From: Chitinophagales bacterium
Lineage (GTDB): Bacteria > Bacteroidota > Bacteroidia > Chitinophagales > CAIODY01
Assembly: GCA_947449695.1 (NCBI GenBank)
Contig: CANFST010000031.1
Span: 1 to 34,846 of the forward strand
Reading direction: 5' to 3'
DNA length: 34,846 nucleotides
Below are positions 10,326-12,367 of the stretch, piece after piece; within the stretch, counting starts at the first letter, position 1, and each line of letters begins with the position of its first letter. The translations under genes and the position numbers were made by a program. The notes beneath the pieces were generated by a model. That model was not told where the DNA came from and ran no database searches. It was given only the letters and a program-made list of their open reading frames with translations.

Positions 10326-11024
10326 TTAATGAAATAACTTATCAAACCCTACAGCTACAAAATAGGCAGCAGCAGCGGCAATCAGCCCAATACCGGTTAC
10401 TTTCAAGGCACCTTTTAATGGCGGCTGACCGGTTACTTTGCTTTTAAAATAACCAAATACAAATAAACAAATGGTAGTAATAATGGCCGACATGATTAAG
10501 CCATCTTTTGGGGTATTGGTAAAAAAATAAGCCGATAATGGCAACAATCCACCTACTAAATAAGCCATGCCAATGGTTAATGCTGAGTTTCTTGCCCTTT
10601 GCGGATTTGGTTCTTCCAATCCTAATTCAAATTTCATCATGAAATTTACCCATTTGGTTTTATCTTTTGCTAATTGGTTAGCTAAGAGCGTTTGACCACT
10701 TTCATCAATGCCATATTCGGCAAATACTTCTTTTACTTCGTGTATTTCTTTTTCGGGAATGGTTTCTACTTCATAATATTCCTTTCTTAGTTCGCTTTCA
10801 TAGTGTTCTTGTTCGGTTTTTCCTGCTAAATAGCCACCTAAACCCATAGCAATACAACCTGCAACTATTTCGGCAATGCCTGCTGTTATAACAATAGTAT
10901 TGCTACTTACTGCACCACTCAATCCGGCTGCTAAGGCAAACGGAACTGTTAAGCCATCACTCATTCCTATTACTATATCAGTTATAAAATCTGAACTTTT
11001 TAAATGTTTTTCAGGGTGCGTCAT
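10326..11024 (-). CDS. VIT1/CCC1-family iron/manganese transporter
   Basis: This 232-residue integral membrane protein of the VIT/CCC1 family moves Fe2+ or Mn2+ out of the cytoplasm in known members. Five hydrophobic helices are visible (about 12-32, 42-66, 147-168, 174-192, 203-224). Helix 1 has the family stretch SDFITDIVIGMSDGLTVPFALAAG. Between helices 2 and 3 lies a charged cytoplasmic insertion (about 70-145) with the Glu-rich helix EQEHYESELRKEYYEVE and the MMKFELGLEEP motif. Together these match the metal-binding domain described for plant VIT1, where Glu and Met residues bind metal, so this is the long form with the domain intact. It is transcribed divergently from the fibronectin-like gene, and the shared upstream region holds the 21-bp array. 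Confidence 0.9.
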   Translation of the reverse strand: MTHPEKHLKSSDFITDIVIGMSDGLTVPFALAAGLSGAVSSNTIVITAGIAEIVAGCIAMGLGGYLAGKTEQEHYESELRKEYYEVETIPEKEIHEVKEVFAEYGIDESGQTLLANQLAKDKTKWVNFMMKFELGLEEPNPQRARNSALTIGMAYLVGGLLPLSAYFFTNTPKDGLIMSAIITTICLFVFGYFKSKVTGQPPLKGALKVTGIGLIAAAAAYFVAVGFDKLFH

Positions 11025-11400
11025 ATTTTAGTATTAAAAGTTTAATGAGTTGTCTGATGCTAATCCATTTATGTTTTTTAGCTTAAAATGGATGGCTTAA
11101 CTCTTTTGTTTTTTATAAAATGTTGATTGATTATTCAACTCTTTTTTCAGTTACAAATATGCTTATTTTAATTGCTACCCGACAATGAATAATAAAAATA
11201 TTTTTTTGCTGATAAGAAAATTGATGATGCGCAATGATTCGGTATTATTGAACTTGTTTTAATCATCATCCTACATGTTAAGCATTTTATCAAACTTTAA
11301 TAACCATTATTCATCGCAATCGGGGTAGAAAAAATTTAATATACTTTTGATTAGTATCATTGCTGATAAGAAATCTGCCTTTTTTAGCTTGAAATAAGTT
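11025..11400. other. Divergent intergenic region, left part
   Basis: These 376 nt upstream of the VIT-family gene contain no convincing gene, RNA or TAnnTTTG box. AT-rich runs and weak short repeats only were seen. Confidence 0.5.
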
Positions 11401-11568
11401 CATGTATGTATACATTCACCCATTGCATGCATACATGAACCTATTGTATGTATGCATTGCCCTATTGCATGCATACATTTAACCATTGTATTTATGCATT
11501 GACTCATTGCATACATACATTCACCCATTGTATGCATACATTGACCCATTGCATGCATACATGAATTA
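11401..11568. repeat. Tandem array: 8 units of 21 bp, arranged as a 42-bp dimer
   Basis: Units start at 11401, 11422, 11443, 11464, 11485, 11506, 11527 and 11548, all exactly 21 bp with no indels. The consensus is ATTGyATGyATrCATtnACCC. The base after ATTG alternates strictly T, C, T, C, T, C, T, C across the eight units, pointing to a 42-bp higher-order unit. Each unit holds an 11-12 bp alternating pyrimidine-purine tract (for example CATGCATACATG) with GCATGC or ATGCAT palindromes. The edges are unit 0, which lacks a perfect ATTG, and unit 7, which ends GAATTA in place of ACCC. The array lies between two divergent genes. Confidence 0.92.
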
Positions 11569-11692
11569 ATTGCTGATTGGAAGTTATCTTTTTTTTATTT
11601 AAATTTGCTTTTATCAAGTGATAGTTGGTTGATAAACACCAGCAAAAGCTTTAAAAAATGCTTGTTATTATTTTATTCACTATTAAAATGAT

Positions 11693-12367
11693 ATGCAGAT
11701 GTATAAAATTAAAGTAAAACGAAATTTCAAACGCTTTGCCAATGCTAAATTAGTAGCATTTGCACGAAATGTAGCTCAAAAACTCACCAGCAATGCTGCT
11801 TTTCCAACACCCGATGTAGCACCTTCAGTTATTTTAGCCGAAGCGCAAACATTAAGCGATTATATTGTTGCTGCAATTAAAGGCAGTAAATATTCAACCG
11901 ATGTAATGCTGACACAATCGGCAAAACTAAAAGCCATATTAGAAACCGAAGCAGCTTATGTTGACCGTATTGCAATGGGAGATATAGCAAAAATAGATAG
12001 CGCAGGCTTTGAAATAACAGGAAATAATAAAGTAAAACGACCATTGCCCGATGCAGTATTAATAAAAAAAGCAGTTTCAATAAGAAATGGTGTAATCGAA
12101 ATTGAATTTGCACCACTCAGGCAAATATCGGGCATCATCGGTATAGCTTGCGAAGTGGGCGTATTGAAAGATATGCAATTACTCACTAATGCGGTGTCAA
12201 TACAATCAATAGCTGCCCAACAAAATACAGTAATTGCCTTTGGCAATGGTCATAAAATGACAATCAACGGATTGAAAAGCAATGTAAGATATGAAGTGAT
12301 TTTATTTGCCTTTAATGCCAACGGAAAAGGCGCTAACAGCAATATGGTAAGTGTGATGGTGCAATAA
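11693..12367 (+). CDS. Bacteroidota fibronectin type III-like hypothetical protein
   Basis: This 224-residue protein has no signal peptide. The N-terminal half (about 5-100) is helical and follows a pattern I recall from a Bacteroidota-specific family (KVKRNFKRFANAKLVAFARNV, NAAFPTPDVAPSVILAEAQ, then a small-residue helix and a TEAAYVDRIAMGD segment leading to SAGFEI). The C-terminal part (about 128-224) looks like a fibronectin-III-type beta-sandwich ending GLKSNVRYEVILFAFNANGKGANSNMV. Family members are usually uncharacterised. The start could be ATG 11693 or ATG 11699, two codons apart. The gene lies just downstream of the 21-bp array and is followed by a mismatched hairpin. No function can be assigned. 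Confidence 0.8.
   Translation: MQMYKIKVKRNFKRFANAKLVAFARNVAQKLTSNAAFPTPDVAPSVILAEAQTLSDYIVAAIKGSKYSTDVMLTQSAKLKAILETEAAYVDRIAMGDIAKIDSAGFEITGNNKVKRPLPDAVLIKKAVSIRNGVIEIEFAPLRQISGIIGIACEVGVLKDMQLLTNAVSIQSIAAQQNTVIAFGNGHKMTINGLKSNVRYEVILFAFNANGKGANSNMVSVMVQ

Follow-up and report, generated by a model that had tools for sequence, protein, structure and literature searches.

Locus-private arrays of about 21-bp units before small two-domain protein genes of Bacteroidota and Verrucomicrobiota

In a 34,846-nucleotide stretch of a Chitinophagales genome (contig CANFST010000031.1; hereafter the window, meaning the whole stretch that was analysed), eight copies of a 21-bp unit lie between two divergent genes, one coding for a transporter of the VIT1 family and the other for a small protein with a fibronectin type III-like (FN3-like) domain. 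Is such an array a random satellite, or is it an element that serves one or both of its neighbours? We took the array apart, looked for its sequence and for its period in other genomes, and weighed the readings that the results permit.

The array and its neighbours in the window

The first-pass annotation had described eight contiguous units of 21 bp without indels, and this description is borne out by the sequence, by TRF and by shuffling (Table 1). TRF reports period 21 with 7.5 copies (score 174) and period 42 with 3.9 copies (score 215); the self-identity of the array is 0.71 at lag 21 and 0.79 at lag 42 as against 0.15-0.20 at off-register lags, and 0/2000 shuffles matched its identity at lag 21 or lag 42. 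No 7-bp sub-period was found within the array (identity at lag 7, 0.19). A CRISPR array is excluded, the units being contiguous and repeating at every position, without unique spacers. The alternation of T and C after ATTG, said to be without exception, does run through all eight units, but unit 1 starts with CATG (its variable base being T) rather than ATTG, and the partial unit at 11569 (ATTGC) has C again where T is expected. A 42-bp dimer as the true repeat is mildly supported, an equal excess of the 42- over the 21-bp signal being given by 229/5000 random unit orders; a strict alternation in pairs of units has weak support (p about 0.05). Alternating purine/pyrimidine tracts measure 13-15 bp in seven units and 7 bp in unit 5. 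An open frame of 52 aa, with heptapeptides rich in Met, His and Cys, runs over the array on the minus strand (11400-11558; MHAMGQCMHTMGEC...) and is probably a by-product of the 21-bp period; part of the array is also open on the plus strand (38 aa).

Table 1. The array and the features around it in the window
Feature	Position	Strand	Basis
Array of eight 21-bp units; consensus about TGTATGCATACATTGACCCAT, dyad core ATGTATGCATACAT	11401..11568	.	Sequence, TRF, lag identity
Units 1 and 2, near-perfect 42-bp inverted repeat (TTCATGTATGTAT ... ATGCATACATGAA)	11401..11442	.	Read from the sequence
FN3-like gene, 224 aa, start possibly at 11699; member of an array-bearing family	11693..12367	+	Homology, predicted structure
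Divergent VIT1-family transporter gene (PF01988), not consistently tied to arrays	10326..11024	-	
Bacteroidetes-type promoter-like site, TTG-N20-TAAATTTG, right behind the array	11577..11607	+	Consensus match only
Stretch 80% conserved at G000:C33:24521-24614, beside a two-unit copy of the array	11561..11650	+	Own-genome comparison

The model of the FN3-like protein (pLDDT 91.3) consists of an N-terminal helical bundle and a C-terminal FN3 domain. The latter matches 3n1f_C with a Z of 14.1 and an rmsd of 1.7 over 91 residues; the Pfam fn3 profile matches the window protein weakly and below the cut-off (E 0.0015), and matches 33 of 47 family members at E<=0.01. A structure search with the N-terminal domain alone (pLDDT 91.7) gave no confident match, the best being p130Cas (Z 8.5) and talin R3 (Z 8.1), both common helical arrangements. 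No HTH or winged helix was seen in the protein model, and their absence from the list of structure matches excludes nothing. The protein families (see below) are basic on median, with a pI of 9.0 and 9.5 and a wide spread.

Control of both flanking genes had been proposed. For the transporter this is unsupported, because arrays are lacking at the VIT1 relatives of two other genomes (G001, G002) and at a paralogue within its own genome, whereas homologues of the FN3-like protein have arrays. The promoter-like site is not a general companion of such arrays: at Bacteroidota loci, 5 full matches were found between array and ATG against 1.9 expected.

A period shared by arrays of unrelated sequence

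Recurrence of the 21-mer consensus, suggested earlier as a check, failed by sequence and succeeded by period. When 59 relatives were searched with the 21-mer sequence, no match to the array DNA was found, and the 21-mer pattern has nothing in its own genome besides the array itself and one place on contig C33 (G000:C33:24489-24614; L002:1501-1640), where two units recur together with about 90 bp of the DNA behind them. This copy lies where a response-regulator gene and a phosphoesterase-like gene converge, with no FN3-like gene beside it.

The first homologues of the 224-aa protein, found within the genus, are preceded by arrays of 21-bp or 41/42-bp units with other sequences (ATGTAATATTACATGCACCAC-like at L013, a unit of 41 bp at L015, units of 21 bp at L016 and L021). 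Of 198 genomes of the order searched with a profile, 31 had matches, the weakest (FN3 domains of large proteins) being omitted. Another 49 loci came from scanning named genomes; they belong to Bacteroidota, to Verrucomicrobiota and to two bins that bear the name Methylococcaceae, the species names being those of the records, many of which are metagenome bins. Within 1 kb upstream of this family (fam1), TRF arrays (score >=80) are present at 69/126 loci, and the best period lies within 1 of a multiple of 21 (21n) in 59/69 (chance share 3/21; binomial p 1e-39). About half of the loci are without a detected array; TRF overlooks diverged arrays. A lag test of the 700 bp upstream placed 53/83 family regions above their own shuffles, 46 of them at 21n, a count from which the 20.5-22-related lags 44 and 55, 24 and 52 are left out; of the controls, 250 upstream regions taken in four genomes, 22 were above shuffles and 7 at 21n. 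The comparison of 46/83 with 7/250 gives a Fisher p of 4e-26, which is optimistic because the loci are partly related and not independent. The earlier view that the array is tied to a gene family and is not a random satellite is supported.

Such a row of units was found at 8/13 loci of Verrucomicrobiota, two of these weak; the two Methylococcaceae bins have a weak repeat at most. The period ranges over 20.5-22, and 21 fits two turns of B-DNA; units of 22/44 bp take the place of 21/42 bp at L104 and L112 (G170, Lacibacter cauensis), L215 and L131. The distance from array to ATG in fam1 spreads widely (10-90% range, 104-597 bp). Among the family arrays, similar sequences were found in 9/2628 pairs; as the arrays are unrelated in all other pairs, most are separate in sequence, if not in descent. 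The eight units of the window are one instance of a widespread arrangement, in which small two-domain proteins of Bacteroidota and Verrucomicrobiota have arrays of about 21-bp units before their genes, with a sequence that is private at almost every locus and a spacing that is kept. The arrangement is apparently undescribed, and no earlier description of such arrays was found in the open full-text literature.

Further families were spotted through arrays beside small-protein genes in the control stretches. In fam2 (225 aa; query L163:206-880), arrays precede 21/27 genes, with 21/21 at 21n and a median of 95 bp before the ATG; in fam3 (247 aa; L183:9221-9961) they are found at 4/13 loci and in fam4 (402 aa, with a CarboxypepD_reg domain; L187:1924-3129) at 16/25. 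Since families 2, 3 and 4 were picked for an array beside one member, that member in each is not independent evidence. Further 21n arrays stand beside none of these families (L185:11527-11846, L188:6678-6813, L190:2703-2973, L191:9537-9661 and L177:10542-10650), one of them between convergent genes.

For the genomes as a whole, own-genome statistics were drawn from sampled stretches, with one genome per species. In 740 kb sampled from family-bearing genomes, 14/19 non-coding arrays are at 21n, as against 0/5 in 704 kb sampled from four genomes of the order without fam1 or fam2 matches; fam3 and fam4 are also absent from these four among the matches listed. One of the four, G007, belongs to a taxonomic family that elsewhere includes carriers of the genes. 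That sampled relatives without the families are also without the arrays suggests a shared factor in the carriers.

No relatives were found in a search of phages, plasmids and viral contigs; no plasmid record encodes one, and the contig of the window belongs to an incomplete assembly. The family loci have no commonly conserved neighbour genes, and PADLOC and PHROGs gave nothing beyond scattered hits and hits driven by FN3. Genes resembling XRE-, LytTR- and LuxR-type HTH regulators adjoin small subsets of loci (L111, L118, L127, L152 and L158; L071, L125, L128 and L129; L147, respectively), mostly members without a near array; they were called by reading, without Pfam confirmation. At L133, L135 and L140 the family gene is preceded, at a distance of about 0.7-1.3 kb, by a RAYT-like gene with the Y1 transposase motif.

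What changes and what is kept

Arrays that can be aligned between orthologues or close paralogues are 62-80% identical, less than the neighbouring DNA. In four of the five pairs compared, substitutions number 47-90 and gaps, each of 1-2 bp, number 0-3. Over 446 bp, L133/L135 differ by 90 substitutions and a single 1-bp gap; L246/L248 differ by 47 and no gap, L121/L122 by 57 and one gap; the arrays of L093/L097 have larger gaps (15, 6 and 3 bp). It had been suggested from the units of the window alone that phase is constrained; the quick substitution with few indels in the arrays of close orthologues agrees, in that phase looks constrained and sequence does not.

Arrays can also be wholly different between closely related loci. 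Proteins that are 80% identical (L093/L100) have unrelated arrays, the gene side being kept; at L213/L217 the gene side is likewise kept and the array replaced; and at L206/L208 the flanks are 87% identical around unrelated arrays, the outer flank being kept.

Dyad symmetry in the units exceeds that of units shuffled at constant composition (19/73 arrays at p<=0.05; Fisher chi2 314 on 146 df), a moderate excess that is not found in all arrays. Covariation inside units is weak (z 4.0) and comes mostly from one locus, L142; the array of the window is negative. At L142 (upstream -590..-254), a 42-bp unit is present eight times, with the hairpins TTTCT.TCGA.AGAAA and CTAAAGtttttCTTTAG in alternation and a constant spacer, ACCCC. 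Purine/pyrimidine alternation, from which a Z-DNA element had been proposed, is present in the array of the window but significant in just 3/73 family arrays, and the proposal is not upheld.

Possible functions and their rivals

We tentatively favour a reading of the array as a helically phased, iteron-like multi-operator that would control the FN3-like gene. A near-two-turn fixed period, a sequence free to differ between loci, dyads and an upstream position together suggest that neighbouring sites are bound on double-stranded DNA. The element would be a chromosomal cis element upstream of the FN3-like gene, with tandem sites at one per two turns of B-DNA; an oligomeric DNA-binding factor may fill adjacent units cooperatively and along the same face of the helix, and its occupancy of the array would set the expression of the downstream gene. 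Unequal exchange may lengthen and shorten the arrays in steps of whole units, each paralogue presumably having its own unit. Against a multi-operator stand the variable distance from array to ATG, promoters that are not regularly beside arrays, 21n arrays at unrelated genes or where genes converge, the fam1 loci at which no array was detected, the weak covariation inside units, the larger gaps of L093/L097, and a protein model in which no DNA-binding fold is recognised; the unrelated arrays of L093/L100 are hard to square with a sequence-specific partner. A broader proposal, which we hold with more doubt, is that the arrays and the small helical and beta-sandwich proteins may be two halves of one undescribed chromosomal system in Bacteroidota and Verrucomicrobiota, in which a genome-resident factor would make, keep or read locus-private arrays of 21-bp units.

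A mutational satellite, in which a replication or exchange process yields duplications quantised at 21 bp and the intergenic arrays are functionless by-products, seems unlikely, and we keep it as a rival because the family-bearing genomes also have 21n arrays at a distance from family genes, 21n prevailing among their non-coding arrays in general. The private sequences and the higher-order periods of 42, 63 and 84 resemble unit-wise amplification; a satellite does not account for the marked enrichment upstream of specific gene families in two phyla, the length retained while sequence changes, or the lack of such arrays in the sampled genomes without the families.

It is somewhat less probable that the array is transcribed and that its dyads fold into a series of hairpins, either within a small RNA or within the FN3-like mRNA leader. 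As RNA (+ strand) the window array folds at z -6.8 relative to shuffles, which do not keep the repeats, and this reading would suit the enriched dyads and the two palindromes that alternate with one spacer at L142. Hairpins, however, need neither a fixed 21-bp period nor so few indels; dyad strength is uneven, the promoter-like site of the window lies downstream of the array, and Rfam 15 gave no family at the gathering score, the only matches being sub-threshold and of microRNA type.

The exchanged arrays beside kept gene sides or flanks (L093/L100, L213/L217, L206/L208) would suit a recombination site that bounds swapped gene-plus-array modules, a reading that appears improbable: no recombinase is regularly adjacent, about 130 loci having three RAYT-like neighbours between them, copies were found in neither phages, viral contigs nor plasmids, and homologous exchange between loci is not expected of arrays unrelated in sequence. 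That the array encodes heptapeptide repeats is very improbable, since the periods 41, 62, 83, 22 and 44 break the frame, periods like 18 or 24 are nearly absent and no ORF is conserved across arrays, even though 21 bp make 7 codons, the window array is open as described above, and open frames slightly exceed the column-permutation expectation (1.54 vs 1.08).

The usual searches for repeats and motifs miss a class of repeat that is set by its period and gene neighbours and not by its sequence. Should the association be real, it offers a way in to the function of several small-protein families that have many members in each genome, and a natural setting in which to study the helical phasing of sites while their sequence drifts.

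Among known systems, REP/BIME elements with their RAYT transposases are intergenic palindromes, REPs being scattered over a genome as copies of a single sequence. Three of our loci have a RAYT-like gene nearby, but the arrays are private, and identity with REP/BIME fails in that the window's genome has one other partial place and no dispersed palindrome. The plasmid centromere sopC of F has tandem 43-bp units with a dyad site bound by the partition protein, together with ParA/ParB genes; the arrays share the tandem units with a dyad, whereas no plasmid and no ParA/ParB genes were seen here. The TAACTGA direct repeats of Beggiatoaceae, Cyanobacteria and some Bacteroidetes are built from one fixed heptamer and lie mostly at the start codon (PMC4679880). 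They too are intergenic tandem direct repeats before genes, with whole-unit changes and unknown function, but the arrays described here have units of about 21 bp, a private sequence, a position 50-600 bp upstream and particular gene families; no TAACTGA doublet was found in 360 loci. Plasmid iterons often lie near the gene of their binding protein. Those of R6K, RK2, P1, F and pPS10 are tandem repeats of 17-22 bp with a replicon-specific sequence, bound cooperatively in a manner tied to helical spacing, and a half-turn shift abolishes cooperative binding (PMC4980987). The window array likewise has tandem direct repeats of this size in helical register; unlike iterons, it is probably chromosomal, and the adjacent protein is, in the model, a helical bundle with FN3 and not a winged-helix Rep initiator. 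Iterons are the nearest model, in the sense that the array may work like them and not that it belongs to them.
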